Origin: Oligoflexales bacterium
Lineage (GTDB): Bacteria > Myxococcota_A > UBA9042 > DTJE01
Reading direction: 5' to 3'
Assembly: GCA_012840965.1 (NCBI GenBank)
Contig: DUVQ01000040.1
Coordinates: 1 to 35,581, forward strand
Length of the DNA stretch: 35,581 bases
Position 1 is the first letter of the stretch. Each line of letters opens with the position of its first letter. Positions 7,940 to 28,704 of the stretch are shown piece by piece. The position numbers and the translations under genes were made by a program. A model generated the notes under the pieces. That model saw nothing but the letters and a program-made list of their open reading frames with translations, did not search any database and was not told the DNA's origin.

Positions 7940-8359
7940 ATGAAAAGTCTGACCAGATATCTTGAATTTAACGTTCCTGCACGCCGTGGTTTTATCAATA
8001 TAACAAGGACCGTGGAGGAGTGCGTAAGGGACAGCAATGTTCGTGAAGGGCTATGCCTTGTGAATGCCATGCATATAACTGCCAGCGTTTTTATAAACGA
8101 TGATGAATCTGGCCTGCATCAGGACTATGATGAATGGCTGGAGCGCTTGGCGCCACATGCCCCAACCAGCCAGTACAGGCACAACCTGACTGGGGAAGAC
8201 AACGCTGATGCCCACATGAAAAGGCAGATCATGGGGCGCGAGGTCGTGGTCGCCATAACCAATGGAAAGCTGGACTTCGGCACTTGGGAACAGATTTTCT
8301 ATGGTGAGTTTGATGGTAGAAGGCGAAAAAGAGTGCTTGTCAAAATCATCGGTGAATAA
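7940..8359 (+). CDS. yjbQ: YjbQ / UPF0047 family protein
   Basis: Small single-domain protein of the YjbQ family (PF01894); some members show weak thiamine-phosphate synthase activity, but the physiological role is unsettled. The 139 residues match the family throughout: [16 protein letters not shown] with the conserved His (most members have HTTA at this point), a [12 protein letters not shown] segment, YRHN, the [13 protein letters not shown] block and the ending [20 protein letters not shown]. It lies 17 bp after ftsZ and overlaps the next gene by 8 bp, so it is probably cotranscribed with the division genes. I see no functional reason for that. Confidence 0.88.
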
Positions 8360-9971
8360 TCAGCTTTCAGGCCCTCGTTTCAAAGGGATCAGCTTACTTC
8401 TCGTCGCCATATTTCTGTTTTCCGAAGGCTGGCTAGTTTGGCTGGCGGCCATTAATACAACTTCAGGCCAGGTTTTTTTGGGTTATCCCCACATCCCGAC
8501 TGATCATTACGCTTACAAGATGATGACCGAACAATCGCGGGAAGATGGGCGTTTTTTCACCGACAACATGTTTACAACCCAGGAGCAAGATGGGCGCTAT
8601 CTTATGTCTGGGCTTTCTGTGACGGGATGGATTGAGGCGTTGTTTCCAAGGGCGGTGCATGCTTGGATTTGGCATAGCCTGCGCCTGCTGGCCCTGGCTG
8701 GGTTTTGCGTTGTCTTGTTAAAACTTTGTCAAAGCCTGTTTGGTGGGCGGACGTTGGTCGCCTTGCTTGCCTTTGCCGCGCTGTTGTTTTCCCAGGGGAT
8801 TGACTGGTTGTGGCGTTTGTTCGTTTCAAAAGGTCTGATATTGATGCCAGGTGGGCAATGGCTGGAAAATCCATGGAACTTCAACTTGTTGTGGACTGGG
8901 ACCCTTGCTACCTGGGTATGGCCCGTGATGATCCTGACTGGGATGATAGTGTTGGAAATTCGCAAGCCACGTGAGGATTTGCTTCGCGGCTTGCTGCGAG
9001 GCATCGCTTTTGCTGTGCTTTTTAGTGTTCATCCATATACAGCCTTGTTTTATTTGGCCTTCACAGTTTTGATAATCGTTTTTGGGGGTGTTGGTGAAAG
9101 CCCTTGGAAGCAAACGATTATTGCAAGTCTAAAGGCGAATGTTGGGATTTTGGTGGGAGTGGCCCTCGTTGGGATTTATGCGTTGTGGGCCAGAGATGAC
9201 GCGGTGTATCGCCTTGGTTCCGATCAGGTCCGGCTGTGGCGCCTTTGGTATTGGCCGCATCTGTGGCCTGTTGTTTACGGTCCTCAACTGGTGTTTGCCG
9301 TATTTGGACTGTTGGTAGATTTTGGTAGGGGAGGGCGGGTTGTCAAATTGTGGCTTGCTGCCGCTTTGCTGATGTCGCTAAATCCAATGGTGACAGGTGC
9401 AAAATTTCAGTTTTTAGCGGTCATCCCCTTGATTTTGCTTGAGGTTGCAGGCGTTTCATATCTGTTGAGGCGATTTCCAAAGGCAAGGCTGCTTAAGATT
9501 GGGGTAGCATTGATTGCGGTTTTGTCGTTGAGCGGCTACGTTGAGGCGATGACCTCGGACCTAAGGGCGCCCGAAGTTGTAGACGCCAGCGAGGCAAGCC
9601 CTGACATGCTTAAGACCTTGGAATTTTTGAGAACTCAGCCTGAAGGTGGCGTTTTATGTCATCCAACTGATGGGGCTATAGTGCCTTGGAAGGCGCACAA
9701 GACGGTGTTTGTGGGCCAGTGGTTTCTAAGTACCAGATTTTATGAAAAAGTTGACCTGGTCAGCTGGTTTGTTCAAGGGCCCGCATCCGATGAAGCAAGG
9801 CTTGACTTTTTGGCTGCTGCCCACATCGCTTATGTGCTTGATAGTCCACGTCTTAGGTCCTTTGGAGCTATGCCCGAGATTGATGGATTAGTCGAGATAT
9901 TCCGGACAGATTCAGTAAGGTTATTGACAGTATCTAATTTTGATCGTAGTAAAAATCAGCAGACGGACTAA
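8352..9971 (+). CDS. Polytopic membrane protein, GT-C-like, function unknown
   Basis: Probably starts at GTG 8352, overlapping the end of the YjbQ gene. The frame stays open back to an ATG at 8262, but those extra codons lie inside the yjbQ gene and look spurious. The product (~539 residues) has about ten hydrophobic segments beginning with [21 protein letters not shown] long soluble loop with acidic residues ([20 protein letters not shown]) follows the first helix, as in GT-C glycosyltransferases, and the C-terminal ~130 residues are soluble. The arrangement suggests a lipid-linked sugar transferase or similar enzyme, but I recognise no diagnostic motif. It lies 15 bp before the lipoprotein gene, apparently in the same operon. 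Confidence 0.7.
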
Positions 9972-14521: not shown

Positions 14522-16681
14522 TCACAAAATCTGCAACTTGTGATGCTCTATCACCCTATCAATCTGCGCAGGAATTTCACCAATAGGCCTATTACTCGAA
14601 AATAATGCATTGTTCACCAAGTAAAATGGAGTGTCGTCGCCAGCCATCTTTATCTCAATATCTTGGCCAAGGCATGGTCTGCTGCAGGTTTCGGGCACTA
14701 TATACAAATGTTTCTGTTTTGCTTGCCTAGAAAGATAGGAACAAGCACGACCTGAAGCCAGCATCGTAGGGCCAACGTGTAGCGTAAGCTTGTTGATAAC
14801 AGTGGAATTCCAGATCGGCCAGACATTTGGAATAGAGATCTCAGCACGATTAATGGACAGCATCTTTGCCAATTCTTCGAGATGTAAAATAGCTGGTGCA
14901 AAAGCAATTGAGTGCTGATCAATCTTGGCGCCAGGTCTAATCAACCTAGGGTCATCTCGCATCTTCACAAGGAGCCTGCCAATCGAAATGATCGCATCGG
15001 GCCCCAACATTTTGCGCAGGCCAAACAAAGTTCCCATATCGTTTGCGATAAATTCGATTTGAGAGTTGGCATTAAAAGAGGCGAGCTCACTTACCAGCTG
15101 CTGTACTCGGTCGTGCTGTTTAATTCCATACAGAGGCGGCAATACAAAAATAAGCCGTTTATCTTTAAGCACTTCCAACCACGAACGCAGTTGAGTTTTT
15201 GTCGGAAGCAAGTGGGTACACGTTTCGTGACCAATGGCCACACCGTCGTACTCTGGCGGCGGCTCAGATGGTTTTTCATATGGGAGAGCCAGCCAGAACC
15301 TGTCTACATTCTGCCAATTTGATGGGATTGGCGGCTTTGGGCTCTCGATGACTTTTGGTGGAATAGTCCAGACTTTTTCCAAATCCTGGGGGTAGTAACA
15401 AATTTCGGGTTTGCAAACTAATTCGGGATGTTGCGTTATTAACGTCTGCACATCTTCAATCGAGTCTAGCTGTCTATCAAGGATGTCGCTAGCAGCTTGG
15501 ACAAACGGCGCTATCTGCTTTCCACTCATCCTACGCCCAACGATTTTGAATGTCTTGACTCTAGGATATCTGCTTAGGGCGGCAATTGCACACAGGCCAC
15601 ATGATTCCATTTTGTTACGATCATCTATGGTGAATTCAGAATCTTTTGAATACCACCTTTGATGGCACAAAGCGTAGCTTCCCAATTTGTCAGCTTCTTC
15701 AGCAGGGAACTCGTGTTCAGAACGACAGTAGGCATTTATGAACCGGCAACGCTCTCGTGCTATGAATATCTCGATGTCGGGGCCTTCGCCTTGAGCCAGT
15801 TCTGCTATTTCACTCAGCAACATCGGTCTGGGTAAAACTACATCGTTGGTTCCAATTTCTTTTAAAAACTCCATCCCAGAAGGGGTTGAAATGTTCATCA
15901 GGACGCTTGTCGCAACCTTCAGATTTGGCCATGTTTTTCGAACAAAGGATATCAAATTGAGGTCTGACAGGATTATCCCATCAACACCAGCATCAACAAG
16001 TCTTGTTATGCCTTCAATGACTTGATCCTCAATACCATTGGGGTAAAGGGAATTCATTGTGAGCATGATTTTACGCCCATATTCGTGCGCAACTTCGATG
16101 AAACGCTCAAAATCAACTATCGTAACACTAGCATTTTCTGATGATCGGCAGTTTTCAGGGTTCCATCCAGGGGCAGAATTTCGCAAATCGTCAAAACGGA
16201 TTCCAGCGTAAAAGACATCAGCACCTGCCTTACTCAGAAGCCCTATGTCTACGATATTTCTTAGAGGAACCATGAGTCTTCGATCTGTCCTAGCTGGGGG
16301 TACGTCAGCTGGTCGAATCGGTGTATCTCGCACATGTACGGGAAATCGCAGTTCTTGGATAGCGTTAATCCAGGTTTGGCTAAGCGAGTTTTCACGAGCC
16401 ACAATTTTTTGACAGACAGCATCAAGCAAAGGGTTAGCTTCAGGAACATATTGACTAGTACCGACCATGAGTTTTGAGAATCTGCGGTAGGCAGGCTCCT
16501 TGTCGTCACGGGCCATAAGCCAAATTGAAACTGATGCAGTTTCACCCTGAAACAACATCAAGAGTCGGTCAGATTCAACAACATCGACTAACTTAAAGCC
16601 ATAAAGGTCATCAGACGAGTAGACAAGGTCATCCAACAAAAACAAGACGCCTCGCAAAAATCTGCTACTCTTCTTTGCCAT
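14522..16681 (-). CDS. U32-family protein: apparent UbiU-UbiV-like fusion
   Basis: 719 residues. Residues ~135-410 are a U32 domain closest in pattern to UbiU: KAGADVFYAGI, GVDGIILSDL, VVLPRPMLLSEIAELA, Cys312-x6-Cys319, Cys339, Cys361 and KIVGRRMSGKQ. Residues ~465-715 resemble UbiV: GHETCTHLLPTKTQLRSWLE (Cys488), IEFIANDMG, then Cys647-x18-Cys666-x3-Cys670. In Escherichia coli, UbiU and UbiV are separate [4Fe-4S] proteins that act together with UbiT in oxygen-independent ubiquinone hydroxylation. Here each half keeps four well-placed Cys, so two clusters in one chain are plausible. Residues 1-130 form an additional domain that I do not recognise. Other U32 roles (RNA hydroxylation, peptidase-like) cannot be excluded. 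It is a single gene, convergent with pgk. Confidence 0.75.
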   Translation of the reverse strand: MAKKSSRFLRGVLFLLDDLVYSSDDLYGFKLVDVVESDRLLMLFQGETASVSIWLMARDDKEPAYRRFSKLMVGTSQYVPEANPLLDAVCQKIVARENSLSQTWINAIQELRFPVHVRDTPIRPADVPPARTDRRLMVPLRNIVDIGLLSKAGADVFYAGIRFDDLRNSAPGWNPENCRSSENASVTIVDFERFIEVAHEYGRKIMLTMNSLYPNGIEDQVIEGITRLVDAGVDGIILSDLNLISFVRKTWPNLKVATSVLMNISTPSGMEFLKEIGTNDVVLPRPMLLSEIAELAQGEGPDIEIFIARERCRFINAYCRSEHEFPAEEADKLGSYALCHQRWYSKDSEFTIDDRNKMESCGLCAIAALSRYPRVKTFKIVGRRMSGKQIAPFVQAASDILDRQLDSIEDVQTLITQHPELVCKPEICYYPQDLEKVWTIPPKVIESPKPPIPSNWQNVDRFWLALPYEKPSEPPPEYDGVAIGHETCTHLLPTKTQLRSWLEVLKDKRLIFVLPPLYGIKQHDRVQQLVSELASFNANSQIEFIANDMGTLFGLRKMLGPDAIISIGRLLVKMRDDPRLIRPGAKIDQHSIAFAPAILHLEELAKMLSINRAEISIPNVWPIWNSTVINKLTLHVGPTMLASGRACSYLSRQAKQKHLYIVPETCSRPCLGQDIEIKMAGDDTPFYLVNNALFSSNRPIGEIPAQIDRVIEHHKLQIL

Positions 16682-23198: not shown

Positions 23199-24275
23199 TC
23201 AGTCGCCAAACCAAGGTTTCAAGCCAACCATCATGGCATCAAACAGCTCAATATCTAACTGCTGTTTGCCATCTGAATGGGCCAGATGTGGTTGTGGGTG
23301 GACCTCTACCATCAACCCGTCAGCTCCTGCAGCCAATGCCGCCCTGGCAAGGGCTGGAATAATGATGCGCCTGCCGGCCGCATGGCTGACATCCACAGTA
23401 ACTGGAAGGCGCGTTCTGAGCTTTAAAAGTGGTACTGCAGATATGTCTAGGGTAAATCTGGTCTCCGAATTGAAGGTCCTGATGCCCCTTTCACAAAGTA
23501 CGATCCGTTGGTTTCCGGTTTTATAGATATACTCTGCTGCCAGTTCAAACTCCTCTAATGTGGCTGCAAACCCTCTTTTTAACAGTATAGGCAGCCCTGT
23601 TTGGCCGGCGGCTTGAAGGAGCTCAAAGTTTGACATGCTCCTGGTACCAATCTGAAGCATATCCACATGTTTAACACATATATCCAGTTGATGAATGGCG
23701 TTAACTTCGGTTATTGACGCCATCCCATAGCGCTTGGCGGCTTCTCCCAAAAACCGAACTCCTTCATTTCCCAAACCTTGGAAGGAGTAAGGCGAAGTTC
23801 GCATTTTAAAGGTCCCGCCGCGTAAGACCCGCACGCCACGGACTGCCAATTCTTTGGCGATTTGATCAATCTGTTCTTCACTTTCGACTGAACATGGTCC
23901 GGCAATAAGTACAGGTTTTTTGCCAAATTCCACGTCGCCAACAGGAACAGTAATGGGCAGCAAATCGAAGCGGCTGGCGATTTCCAGCCCATTTCCATTC
24001 GAGCCTCGCATCAGTTCCAATGAGACATCAAAGATGTGCTTAAATAGGTCCACCACTGTTTCATTGGAAAAAGGCCCTGTATTAGCCTGGAGCAGAGCTT
24101 GGATCATCTCCCGCTCTCTGGAGGGGCTAAACAGATCCAAGCGGTCGCGGCGCTTGATTGCCGCCATATTAATCACAAGTTGGGCTCGTTGAGACAGTAA
24201 ATCCAAGAGCTTCATATTGAGATCGCTAATGTTTTTTCGTAGCTCCACAACGTTTCTATTCTCAGTGTCTGACAT
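23199..24275 (-). CDS. aroF: Chorismate mutase-DAHP synthase fusion
   Basis: Bifunctional cytoplasmic enzyme. Residues 1-90 are an AroQ-type chorismate mutase (LRKNISDLNMKLLDLLSQRA, SPSREREMI). Residues ~105-358 are a type I-beta DAHP synthase of the Bacillus/KDO8P-synthase-related group: LIAGPCSVES (124-133, metal-binding Cys128), RGGTFKMRTSPYSFQG, QIGTRSMSNFELL, ERGIRTF, VDVSHAAGRR and VEVHPQPHLAHSDG. In related fusions the mutase domain senses prephenate or chorismate and feedback-inhibits DAHP synthase, so this chain may both make and sense pathway intermediates. It is divergent from aroB across a 251-bp control region, completing a full shikimate cluster. Confidence 0.94.
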   Translation of the reverse strand: MSDTENRNVVELRKNISDLNMKLLDLLSQRAQLVINMAAIKRRDRLDLFSPSREREMIQALLQANTGPFSNETVVDLFKHIFDVSLELMRGSNGNGLEIASRFDLLPITVPVGDVEFGKKPVLIAGPCSVESEEQIDQIAKELAVRGVRVLRGGTFKMRTSPYSFQGLGNEGVRFLGEAAKRYGMASITEVNAIHQLDICVKHVDMLQIGTRSMSNFELLQAAGQTGLPILLKRGFAATLEEFELAAEYIYKTGNQRIVLCERGIRTFNSETRFTLDISAVPLLKLRTRLPVTVDVSHAAGRRIIIPALARAALAAGADGLMVEVHPQPHLAHSDGKQQLDIELFDAMMVGLKPWFGD

Positions 24276-24526: not shown

Positions 24527-25594
24527 GTGTCCAACATGACAAACGATGTGTTGCTTACGCATTTTGTACAACAGGAGCAAAGAACACAGGTGGCAATTGG
24601 TTCAGGGGTTTTAAAAAAGCTTGAACAATTCCTGCCACCTAATACCTCAAAAGTATTTGTAATTGGTGATTCCATAGTCATGTCCTTGTACGGGGATGAA
24701 ATTAAAAGCCATTTGTCGATTGAAACTAGTTTGCTTTCGTTTGCCCCTGGTGAATCTTCAAAAGTATTGGACACTTGGTTTGAATTAAATCAGCAGCTTG
24801 AACAAGGGGCAGTTGACCGTCGGGCAGTTGTTATTGGACTTGGTGGAGGGGTTTCAACCGATTTGGCTGGCTTTGTTGCAGCAACGTCCCTTAGAGGCTT
24901 GGATGGCATCTTTGTTCCGACTTCACTGCTGGGGATGGTTGATGCTGCAATTGGTGGCAAGGTCGGGCTAAATAGTGGCTTTGGCAAAAACAGAATTGGC
25001 TGCATGTGGTGGCCCAAGGCAGTTGTGGTTGACCCCGATGTTTTGCTTACATTGCCAGATTTGGAGACTAGTCTGGGGCTGGCTGAAGTCATTAAAATAG
25101 CGTGTGTGGATGATCCACCTTTGTTGGACTTGCTGTTAGCCCAACCATCGTTTAGGCCGTCCACAGAGGTCATCATTCGGGCCATAAAGGCAAAGCTTGC
25201 AATCGTGGAACGTGACCCCTTCGAGAAAGGTGAAAGGGCGGTGCTTAACTTTGGCCATACTGTTGGGCATGCCATGGAAGCTTGTTCCAATTGGTCCATT
25301 CCTCATGGGGATGCTGTTGCTTTGGGGATGGAGATAGAGGCTTCAATACTGGAGAGCATTTCTGGCATAAAATGGCGTGATAAGGATAAATTTCTGCGTG
25401 TTCGAGAAAAGGCTGAGCTTACGAGAATTCTTGAGCATCAGCCTGTTACAGCTTGGCAAGACCTGCTTAACTACATGGCTAGCGACAAGAAGTCCACCGG
25501 CTCAAAAATTCGATTCTCGTTACCTAGTTGTTTTGGTGGCGGTCCAGGCAACTGGACAGTTGCTGTTGATTTAGAAGTTTTGGAGACATTGTGA
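24527..25594 (+). CDS. aroB: 3-dehydroquinate synthase
   Basis: Second shikimate step: DAHP to 3-dehydroquinate, using NAD and a divalent metal. The start is GTG 24527, or ATG 24536 three codons later; neither has a strong ribosome site. The 355 residues contain GLGGGVSTDLAGFVAATSLRG (NAD-binding glycines), PTSLLGMVDAAIGGKVGLN, GKNRIGCMWWPKAVVVDPD, GLAEVIKIACV with the metal-binding Glu, LNFGHTVGHAMEA and PHGDAVALGM with the metal-binding His residues. Its stop overlaps the next start as GTGA (25591-25594), so it is translationally coupled to the AroDEAK fusion. Confidence 0.96.
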   Translation: MSNMTNDVLLTHFVQQEQRTQVAIGSGVLKKLEQFLPPNTSKVFVIGDSIVMSLYGDEIKSHLSIETSLLSFAPGESSKVLDTWFELNQQLEQGAVDRRAVVIGLGGGVSTDLAGFVAATSLRGLDGIFVPTSLLGMVDAAIGGKVGLNSGFGKNRIGCMWWPKAVVVDPDVLLTLPDLETSLGLAEVIKIACVDDPPLLDLLLAQPSFRPSTEVIIRAIKAKLAIVERDPFEKGERAVLNFGHTVGHAMEACSNWSIPHGDAVALGMEIEASILESISGIKWRDKDKFLRVREKAELTRILEHQPVTAWQDLLNYMASDKKSTGSKIRFSLPSCFGGGPGNWTVAVDLEVLETL

Positions 25595-28500
25595 CCAGAT
25601 TCTGCGTCACAGGATGTGAACGAGACGTAGAGTCCCTTTCGCAAAGGCTTGAGAACTTAGAACCAGACGACCTTTGTGAAATCCGCATTGATGCCCTTTA
25701 TGATGGGGCTTCATTGGGGGACGCAACTTTAGAAGGATTGTGGCCCCTGATATCCAAGTACGGTCCTAGATTGATTGTGACTTGCAGGCCTGAATGGGAG
25801 GGCGGCTGGTTTTCAGGCGATGAACACAAGCGCCTAGGGTTACTTGTAAAGGCCTTTGAATTAGGGGCCAGATTTGTCGATGTGGAAGTTGTCGCTTTGG
25901 ATAAGCTGCCTGACTTTGTTGCACATGAAAACATCTTGGCTTCTTGGCATGGTGATATCGCGGACCTAGATAAGGTCGCATTTCCAAAAGATATGCACAT
26001 CAAGGTGGCTGCAAACGTCAACTGGGCCTCAGATTTAGTTAAGCTGCGACGTTTTAGCCAGACTTTGAAACAGCCTGCATCAGTAGTTGCAGTCGGACAT
26101 GCCGGCATCTGGTCCAGGGTCAGACCTTTGGACTTTAACTCGGCCTGGACTTACGTTGCCGCAGCCTCTGGCCTTGAGACAGCCGCCGGTCAGGTCACAA
26201 AAGACGAGGCTGTTGCACTTAGGGCCTTAGAATCGGGCAAGCTGCAACCAATAGCTTTGGTTGGTGGCAAGCAGGTGACTTCATCGGTCGGGCCTGCAGT
26301 TTACAACCGGCTTTTTTCAAACACTGGAGAGTCATTTCAGTATTTGGCAGTGCCAGCTAGAAGTTGGGGTGAAGTCCTGGAGCTTACTTTGGAATTTGGC
26401 ATTCCGTGGCTGTCAGTCACGATGCCATTTAAAAAAGAGGCCTTTGCTTCAAGTCTAGTCTCAGACACTTGGGCTTTGGGAGCAGGTGTTGCAAACACAG
26501 TTCAATTAAAACAGGGCGTTCCAATAAAGTGCTGGAACACCGATGTTGTTGGGTTTTTGGATGGCCTGCCTGATGCCCATTCAAGGGCATTAATCTTGGG
26601 TGGTGGTGATACTGCTTTTGCCTTGGCTTACGGCTTAAGGCAAAGGAATGTCGAGGTAACTTTTGCAGCTAGGCGCGTTGATGTTGTTAAAACGCGAGCC
26701 TCAAGTATGGATGGGGTTAACGTTGTAACATGGCAGGATCGTGCAAGCGTACCTTTTGACTTGTTGATTCAAGCAACTCCTTTGGATGGCCTTTTAGGCG
26801 AGGCGCCTTGGGATGAATCGGGGCTTAAGGTCCTTAAGGATTCTGCAAAACTCGTCGTTGACGTGGTTGTGCCTGTCAAAGAGCCTACAGCCCTGGTAAA
26901 AGACTGTTGGGCAGCTGGCATTCCGGTCATGGATGGGCTTGACTTTTGGGCGTATCAAGCAGCTAGGCAGGCAAGTTTGTTTACTGGTCGGGATGTGACG
27001 TTTAAGGAAATAGTTGCGACTTTGAATGCGGTGCGACGAATTGACTTCAAGTGCCTTCCAGAGTCGAGTTTGTTGATTCCAGGTTCCAAAAGCTTGACCC
27101 AGCGATATCTTGTTTTATCAGCACTTAGCGATGTTGCCGCAAAAATTCACAATGCGTCCACAAGCTCAGATTCCATAGAGCTGGCCGCGGCATTACAGCA
27201 GTTCAAAACAGGTCAGAGCAACATCTACTGTGGCCAAGGTGGGACTACAGCACGTTTTATGGCCGCTTTGTCGCTGCTTACTGACAGACAGATTTGTCTT
27301 GAGTTTGCGTCTGGCCTTGCTAGGCGCCCTATGCGGCACATGGCAGATGCGCTGGCCTTGGCTGGGAAGCAGACAAAAATAGTTGAAGAGCGTGATGGCA
27401 AAGGGATTTTTCTGATTTCTGGACCAAAGTTCGCTGGTGGGCGTGTATCAGTGGATGCCTCCGTTTCAAGCCAATTTGCTTCAGGTCTTTTGTTGGTTGC
27501 CCCATTTTTGGAAAACGGCCTTGAATTGGTTATCAAAGGACCGCTGGTTTCTAAATCCTATCTGGAGATGACCTTGCGGTCCATTAAGCTTTTTGGGGCG
27601 TCAGTTATCAAGGCAGATTATGGTTTTAAGGTGCCTCCAAGTAAGCCGAAAAATGTTGAATTAACAGTAGAACCTGATTGGTCTTTAGCTGCATTTTGGT
27701 TCGTGGCCAACAAAATTACTGGTGCTGGTCCAGTGCCTGATGGTTTGACCTATCCTTCGATGCAGGGTGACGCCATAGTTTGCGATCTGTTACAGACGAT
27801 AGCTGGCGGGGAGTGCGAGATAGATCTGAAATCCACGCCAGATTTGCTGCCGCCTCTTGTGATTGCAGCCATTTTTCAACCATGGTCAGTTACCTTTACA
27901 AATGTTGGGCACGCCAGGTATAAAGAAAGTAATCGTTTAGAGGTGTTAGCCTCTGAATTGACCAAGGTTGGTGCCAATATAACGGTTCTTGAAGATTCGA
28001 TGGTTATAAAACCCTCGATCCTTAATGGGCCTGCGATCCTTAACCCCCATGGCGATCATCGGATGGCGATGTCCTTTGGAATTTTGTCGCTTGCTTTGCC
28101 TAAGGTTTTTGTGACCGACAAGCAGTGTGTAAGCAAGTCATATCCGTCATTTTTTAATCAGTTAGAAGTTTTTCGCCGTCTGTCAAAACCACCATCAGCG
28201 CTTGTTTTAGTTGGAAATCGTGGGTCTGGCAAATCAACGGTTGGACAAGCGTTAGCAGCCACACTTGGGCTTGATTTTATTGATACCGACGTGGAAGTGG
28301 AAAGGCGCACTGGATTGGAGATTAGTCAGCTATTCAATCAAGGTCGCATTGGCGAATTTCGTCGCCTTGAATCCGCCATCATCCGTGAGAATCTTCAAAA
28401 ACCTGTGGCCTTAGCCACTGGTGGTGGTGCCCTAGATGATGGAAACGCAAGGTGGTTGCTTAAAAACGCCTTTGTTGCATGGCTTGATTGCCCTGTTGAT

Positions 28501-28704
28501 GTCTTGGTCAAACGTTTGGGAAATCGACCATCAGTTACAGGTGCTGACCCAGCGCAAGAACTTGAATTGCTTGTAAAATCCAGAAATGAAAAGTACTGTG
28601 AACTAGCCATAGTAAAGGCGGATACTAGTGGCAACAACATAAAGGAAGTGTGTGATGTCATCGAACGAGCTTGGCGAACATTTCAGGATTCTTACCTTCG
28701 GTGA
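25591..28704 (+). CDS. Tetrafunctional shikimate enzyme: AroD-AroE-AroA-AroK fusion
   Basis: 1037 residues in one uninterrupted frame. 1-213: type I dehydroquinate dehydratase (EIRID 30-34, TCRPEWEGG, His120 in SWH, Schiff-base Lys138 in IKVA). 217-482: shikimate dehydrogenase (SSVGPAVYN, MPFKK with catalytic Lys281, NTDVVGFLDGL with Asp318, LGGGDTAFA). 485-860: EPSP synthase (PGSKSLTQR, RRPMRHMADAL, SSQFASG, KSYLEMTL, catalytic Asp751 in DLLPPL, RYKESNR, DHRMAM). 862-1037: shikimate kinase (P-loop GNRGSGKST 865-873, DTD 898-900, EFRRLE, ATGGGALDD). All key residues appear present, although the usual S-x-S-P of AroE reads SVGP. Fungal AROM has the order B-A-K-D-E; here AroB is separate and the order is D-E-A-K. 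Confidence 0.95.
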   Translation: MTRFCVTGCERDVESLSQRLENLEPDDLCEIRIDALYDGASLGDATLEGLWPLISKYGPRLIVTCRPEWEGGWFSGDEHKRLGLLVKAFELGARFVDVEVVALDKLPDFVAHENILASWHGDIADLDKVAFPKDMHIKVAANVNWASDLVKLRRFSQTLKQPASVVAVGHAGIWSRVRPLDFNSAWTYVAAASGLETAAGQVTKDEAVALRALESGKLQPIALVGGKQVTSSVGPAVYNRLFSNTGESFQYLAVPARSWGEVLELTLEFGIPWLSVTMPFKKEAFASSLVSDTWALGAGVANTVQLKQGVPIKCWNTDVVGFLDGLPDAHSRALILGGGDTAFALAYGLRQRNVEVTFAARRVDVVKTRASSMDGVNVVTWQDRASVPFDLLIQATPLDGLLGEAPWDESGLKVLKDSAKLVVDVVVPVKEPTALVKDCWAAGIPVMDGLDFWAYQAARQASLFTGRDVTFKEIVATLNAVRRIDFKCLPESSLLIPGSKSLTQRYLVLSALSDVAAKIHNASTSSDSIELAAALQQFKTGQSNIYCGQGGTTARFMAALSLLTDRQICLEFASGLARRPMRHMADALALAGKQTKIVEERDGKGIFLISGPKFAGGRVSVDASVSSQFASGLLLVAPFLENGLELVIKGPLVSKSYLEMTLRSIKLFGASVIKADYGFKVPPSKPKNVELTVEPDWSLAAFWFVANKITGAGPVPDGLTYPSMQGDAIVCDLLQTIAGGECEIDLKSTPDLLPPLVIAAIFQPWSVTFTNVGHARYKESNRLEVLASELTKVGANITVLEDSMVIKPSILNGPAILNPHGDHRMAMSFGILSLALPKVFVTDKQCVSKSYPSFFNQLEVFRRLSKPPSALVLVGNRGSGKSTVGQALAATLGLDFIDTDVEVERRTGLEISQLFNQGRIGEFRRLESAIIRENLQKPVALATGGGALDDGNARWLLKNAFVAWLDCPVDVLVKRLGNRPSVTGADPAQELELLVKSRNEKYCELAIVKADTSGNNIKEVCDVIERAWRTFQDSYLR

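Follow-up and report, generated by a model that had tools for sequence, protein, structure and literature searches.

A fused U32 protein from an Oligoflexales genome: a predicted O2-independent hydroxylase with a new accessory domain, most likely from a distinct U/V family that does not serve ubiquinone synthesis

To our knowledge, few enzymes insert an oxygen atom without using O2. The UbiU–UbiV heterodimer of Escherichia coli, an anaerobic ubiquinone hydroxylase, is built from two U32-type subunits, whose clusters are held by a C-x6-C-x16-C-x38-C pattern in UbiU and by C39, C180, C193 and C197 in UbiV (PMC6747719); its oxygen source is given as prephenate in a review (PMC11574389) that cites Ferizhendi et al. 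2024. Prephenate is also required by RlhA, which acts on 23S rRNA, and TrhP, which acts on tRNA, and the Glu and both Cys residues of their E-x7-C-x6-C motif are essential (PMC6599085). RlhA carries two U32 domains in one chain, and a ubiT–ubiU fusion in Zymomonas mobilis provides a precedent for fusion within the UbiUV hydroxylase system (PMC6747719), although it joins a lipid-binding accessory factor, not both U32 halves.

The protein described here combines a U32 half and a UbiV-like half in a single chain. Its gene, which starts with ATG, lies in a 35,581-nucleotide stretch of an Oligoflexales genome that was analysed whole (the window), and its product is the sole U32 match in the source assembly (G000; 3.09 Mb, 218 contigs, 95.7% complete). 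Among relatives, full-length homologues share 34–43% identity with it, and a profile search recovered the full-length fusion in 6 of 379 Myxococcota genomes, five in one family and one in another family of the class; the five genomes other than the source are Myxococcota or Deltaproteobacteria MAGs. The six proteins align across both halves and, because the same fusion is found in six independently assembled genomes, it is a real gene and no assembly artefact. Homologues were found in contigs with the alignment as query but not with the single fused sequence, and the alignment matched no viral contigs. The AF2 model obtained for the full-length protein (pLDDT 78, pTM 0.74) matched the U32 protein 5d88 and TIM-barrel proteins, two-barrel ones among them, in Foldseek, while a PDB sequence search with the fused protein returned weak barrel matches only. 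The model and its matches are compatible with two TIM-barrel-like halves; structure prediction was a check proposed in an earlier note on this DNA.

Table 1. Features of the fused gene and its aromatic-pathway context, in window coordinates
Feature	Position	Strand	Details
Fused U+V protein	14522..16681	-	719 aa; six homologues
Accessory N-terminal domain, residues 11-110	16352..16651	-	Absent from Pfam; without PDB fold match
U32 (UbiU-like) half, residues 135-431	15389..16279	-	Pfam U32 E 2.5e-23; tree
U32 hydroxylase motif E304-x7-C312-x6-C319	15725..15772	-	Conservation over all U32 rows
C339, third cysteine, present in RlhA/TrhP too	15665..15667	-	19/19 in fused/split U/V family
C361-x2-C364 ... 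C423-x4-C428	15398..15601	-	19/19 in fused/split U/V family; 0/12 UbiU/RlhA/TrhP
Linker, residues 432-478	15248..15388	-	Low pLDDT at 434-452; weak conservation among homologues
UbiV-like half, residues 479-713	14543..15247	-	hhalign to UbiV 88-92%; to split homologues 99.7%
C488, counterpart of UbiV C39	15218..15220	-	19/19; aligned with UbiV GExVC
C647-x18-C666-x3-C670, counterpart of UbiV C180-x12-C193-x3-C197	14672..14743	-	Conservation; UbiV ligands PMC6747719
Fused chorismate mutase / DAHP synthase (context gene for prephenate supply)	23199..24275	-	Profile matches; adjoins fused U+V gene in G001

Pfam U32 (PF01136) matched residues 220–407 of the first half (83 bits against a cut-off of 22.4), and the rest of the 719-residue chain, second half included, had no Pfam match. 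The best NCBIfam match of the fused protein was UbiU, at 62.4 bits, below the equivalog cut-off of 440. The UbiU-type motifs pointed out previously do exist (VVLPR at 281–285, C312-x6-C319 and KIVGR at 379–383), as does the E-x7-C-x6-C motif of U32 Fe-S hydroxylases: among all U32 rows aligned, E304 and C312 were each kept in 30 of 31 and C319 in 31 of 31. Seven cysteines of the first half (312, 319, 339, 361, 364, 423 and 428), rather than four, are invariant in 19 U-type proteins, which the earlier note had missed. C312, C319 and C339 are common to RlhA and TrhP; the other four are absent from all 12 UbiU, RlhA and TrhP rows. The UbiU ligand pattern is not matched, the spacing here being C-x6-C-x19-C-x21-C-x2-C plus C423 and C428. 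Motif cysteines of both halves are invariant across the six fused homologues, and over 19 related pairs or fusions C312, C319, C488, C647 and C670 were found in 19 of 19 and C666 in 17 of 19, conservation that is far beyond chance.

The second half gave no NCBIfam UbiV hit, and its likeness to UbiV, judged from sequence comparison, appears remote. Alignment of the V family to seven UbiV sequences with hhalign gave 92% or 88% over about 88 columns only, and the V family scores equally against the U family; GHETC lay on the GExVC of UbiV in that alignment. Compared with split V proteins, the second half reached 99.7%. The order C488, C647, C666, C670 is that of the UbiV ligands, and the UbiV pattern C-Xn-C-X12-C-X3-C recurs as C488-X158-C647-X18-C666-X3-C670, in which the X18 gap is longer than X12. 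The cysteine after a GH/GE motif and the three that follow it, all described before, are thus present and are kept in relatives; the T-K-x-x-x-WLE segment listed with them is a chance feature, unconserved even among the closest relatives.

In a tree of the U half, UbiU, TrhP and RlhA grouped together (100/100), apart from a second group made up of the fused and split proteins (19 rows, 100/100), so that the fused protein groups with 18 others outside the UbiU clade. The six fused rows were monophyletic in both the U tree (100/99) and the V tree (97/100), which indicates a single origin of the six-genome fusion; long branches flagged by the tree program make the finer branching order unsure. 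By these comparisons, the fused protein is a putative member of a separate, undescribed U/V family, sister to the UbiU/TrhP/RlhA clade. Of the proposed UbiU–UbiV fusion, the layout is supported: behind an N-terminal domain, a single chain in which a U32 half precedes one of UbiV type, with separate cysteine sets for the two. The identification of the halves as UbiU and UbiV is not supported, given the UbiU score, the clustering of UbiU with TrhP and RlhA in the tree, and the lack of UbiA (below). Like the E. coli heterodimer, the fused protein has a U followed by a V half, both of U32 type, with E-x7-C-x6-C in U and C...C-xn-C-x3-C in V, and a likely prephenate link; it differs in being one chain rather than two, in its extra N-terminal domain and four extra U cysteines, and in its separate clade and the absence of UbiA from its genome.

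Split U and V are encoded by adjoining genes in other Myxococcota, a Diapherotrites archaeon, a contig filed as Chloroflexota and a Roseburia megaplasmid. In the archaeon the second gene of the pair begins one base past the end of the first. The Chloroflexota-filed contig (L027) has archaeal-looking neighbours, among them an apparent large subunit of archaeal DNA polymerase D, and several of its genes match those of the Diapherotrites locus (L028); it is probably misbinned. On the plasmid of the gut Firmicute Roseburia sp. 831b (L085 11317-14005) the V/U pair is divergent and V is annotated as a hypothetical protein. A second, independent U+V fusion belongs to another family branch (G006, L081 6200-12202; G006:C17), and by eye its C-terminal domain looks like that of V-like proteins in L062 and L063.

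Genes for chorismate mutase and chorismate synthase are found no more than 14 kb from the fused gene in G000 and in G001, the two genomes of its genus. A chorismate mutase-DAHP synthase gene precedes the fused gene of G001 by 45 bp, on its strand, and the same 14.9 kb contig also holds a multifunctional Aro gene and chorismate synthase; in the window, these aromatic genes are 7–13 kb away. Every genome with the fusion encodes both activities, as does the archaeon that has the pair as separate genes; chorismate genes are nearly ubiquitous, so finding them is weak evidence. The suggestion that the enzyme may depend on prephenate gains support from the donor reported in the literature and from the 45-bp arrangement in G001. 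Outside its own genus the fused gene had no conserved neighbours. Two further fusions were seen among these aromatic genes. A 1037-aa open reading frame at 25591-28704 of the window, flanked by aroB and aroC, is a bacterial four-part fusion of AROM-like type, with matches to 3-dehydroquinase, shikimate dehydrogenase, EPSP synthase and shikimate kinase; and chorismate synthase and a chorismate mutase domain share one 543-aa open frame in G001 (L169 about 8047-9333; G001:C162).

Several split pairs sit in recognizable gene clusters. A U/V pair and a QhpC match occur in one stretch in five genomes of one Myxococcota family, within clusters for quinohemoprotein amine dehydrogenase maturation (L064 4582-12131 and L065 4082-11666, with L068, L069 and L070 similar). 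The gene order in L064 is QhpD-type radical-SAM protein, QhpC, beta-propeller-like protein, V, U, ABC exporter and QhpE-type protease; QhpC is above its cut-off, and the QhpD-type gene has TIGR03906 as its best model, below cut-off. Paracoccus has the same Qhp gene set with a FAD protein in place of the U/V pair; used as query, that protein hit nothing in four of these Qhp genomes, and the fifth gave only a weak, unlinked match. QhpG is an O2-dependent peptidyl-tryptophan dihydroxylase (PMC7876137). The U/V pair of the Myxococcota clusters, which holds the place where QhpG is missing, is a candidate O2-independent peptidyl-tryptophan hydroxylase, although QhpG is a flavin (FAD) and O2 enzyme of another protein family; none of the papers searched names U32 together with quinohemoprotein amine dehydrogenase. 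Genomes with the fused gene had no QhpC match over the cut-off, so a Qhp role for the fused protein was rejected, and what the Qhp-linked pairs act on is no guide to its own substrate. Another U/V pair heads an ATP-dependent benzoyl-CoA reductase cluster (L067 1-9669), in which the BcrB and Oah models are above cut-off.

The N-terminal region noted earlier as an addition to the U and V halves (residues 11–110) proved to be a real domain, recurring on other proteins by profile search. It matched no Pfam family above cut-off, and assignment to a known fold was rejected, with no Foldseek match at E < 0.001. Profile searches in Myxococcota found it at the N- or C-terminus of many radical-SAM proteins, on a PhyH dioxygenase, and on nitrogenase component 1-like and membrane glycosyltransferase-like proteins. 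One carrier in G000 is a nitrogenase-like protein (PF00148, E 1e-27), whose gene is followed by a second apparent component 1-like subunit gene and a radical-SAM-like gene, and another, as a weaker match, is a double radical-SAM protein; a nitrogenase-like operon with a NifH-like gene bears it in G006. V-like proteins of G008 and G002 matched at their C-terminus with the enriched profile only (E 1.9e-6 and 3.6e-5), the initial comparison not being significant. Loci for front-domain nitrogenase-like component 1 proteins include L165 9644-14755 (G000:C84), L168, L167 and L166 9251-10575, and the fusion to a PhyH-type Fe/2-oxoglutarate dioxygenase is at L113 4419-5705 (G265:C876).

A true UbiU–UbiV fusion for anaerobic ubiquinone synthesis would account for the U-then-V order, as in ubiUV, and the UbiV-like cysteine set, and has the Zymomonas fusion as precedent (PMC6747719). 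We nevertheless consider it very improbable: the score is far under the UbiU cut-off, the protein falls outside the UbiU clade, and proteobacterial UbiA (TIGR01474) was over cut-off in none of the 13 genomes tested, which rules out ubiquinone as the product. A ubiquinone role was accordingly rejected on UbiA and phylogeny. The search for ubiT proposed in the earlier note gave only a weak SCP2 match, in a 276-aa open reading frame of G000. No COX1-type oxidase was found in G000, consistent with anaerobic life, short of proof. An equally slight chance attaches to a peptidase, the activity in the Pfam name Peptidase_U32, against conserved cysteines and an E-x7-C-x6-C motif like those of U32 hydroxylases.

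That the protein is an RNA hydroxylase standing in for RlhA or TrhP is unlikely, though a lone U32 match in G000, a stand-alone gene and the two U32 domains per chain of RlhA (PMC6747719) speak for it. With both enzymes it has in common the U32 domain, catalytic motif and third cysteine; unlike them it has a UbiV-type second half and a different cysteine set. A Pfam search found no known RNA-binding domain, four fused genomes (G001, G003, G009 and G025) have another U32 match elsewhere, and the front domain otherwise sits on radical-SAM, nitrogenase-like and dioxygenase proteins, none of them RNA enzymes. We give a similarly low chance to a U32 oxidoreductase for some other reaction, such as dehydration or reduction, in which oxygen or electrons are moved or removed. 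Four extra cysteines would shift the redox make-up, one U/V pair heads the benzoyl-CoA reductase cluster, and the front domain is common to nitrogenase-like proteins; but those U32 Fe-S proteins with a described activity in the literature surveyed are hydroxylases (PMC11574389), and Qhp clusters miss their hydroxylase just where the U/V pair sits.

On balance we think it rather likely that the fused protein is a self-contained, probably prephenate-dependent, U32-type O2-independent hydroxylase with a non-ubiquinone substrate. As such a hydroxylase, its two halves would do the work of the two subunits, UbiU and UbiV, which in E. coli are distinct proteins. The first half would hold the catalytic E-x7-C-x6-C site with an open or four-ligand [4Fe-4S] cluster, while C361, C364, C423 and C428 probably bind another; in the second half, C488, C647, C666 and C670 may hold one cluster. 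The oxygen atom would probably come from prephenate and be placed on a substrate other than a ubiquinone precursor. The N-terminal domain may dock the enzyme on a substrate or partner common to the radical-SAM and nitrogenase-like proteins that carry it in G000 and related genomes. With more doubt than confidence, we extend this to a wider proposal: an undescribed anaerobic biosynthetic system might exist whose oxygen-sensitive metalloenzymes (nitrogenase-like reductase, double radical-SAM proteins and the two-half U32 hydroxylase) share the new domain for docking and work on one carrier or scaffold, and non-ubiquinone U/V pairs might form a general O2-independent hydroxylase family that includes a peptidyl-tryptophan hydroxylase replacing QhpG.

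The finding is thus real and more interesting than a UbiU–UbiV fusion: the protein is most likely the fused form of a distinct U/V family unconnected with ubiquinone, carries a new accessory domain and is a predicted O2-independent hydroxylase. Substrates of the U32 hydroxylases in the literature surveyed are ubiquinone precursors or RNA, and the fused protein lies outside both groups. As a single-chain hydroxylase candidate it offers a compact protein for studying the chemistry, and it suggests new substrates. The U/V family extends to archaea and to amine dehydrogenase clusters, and the missing QhpG of the Myxococcota Qhp clusters makes its activity directly testable on a known protein substrate.
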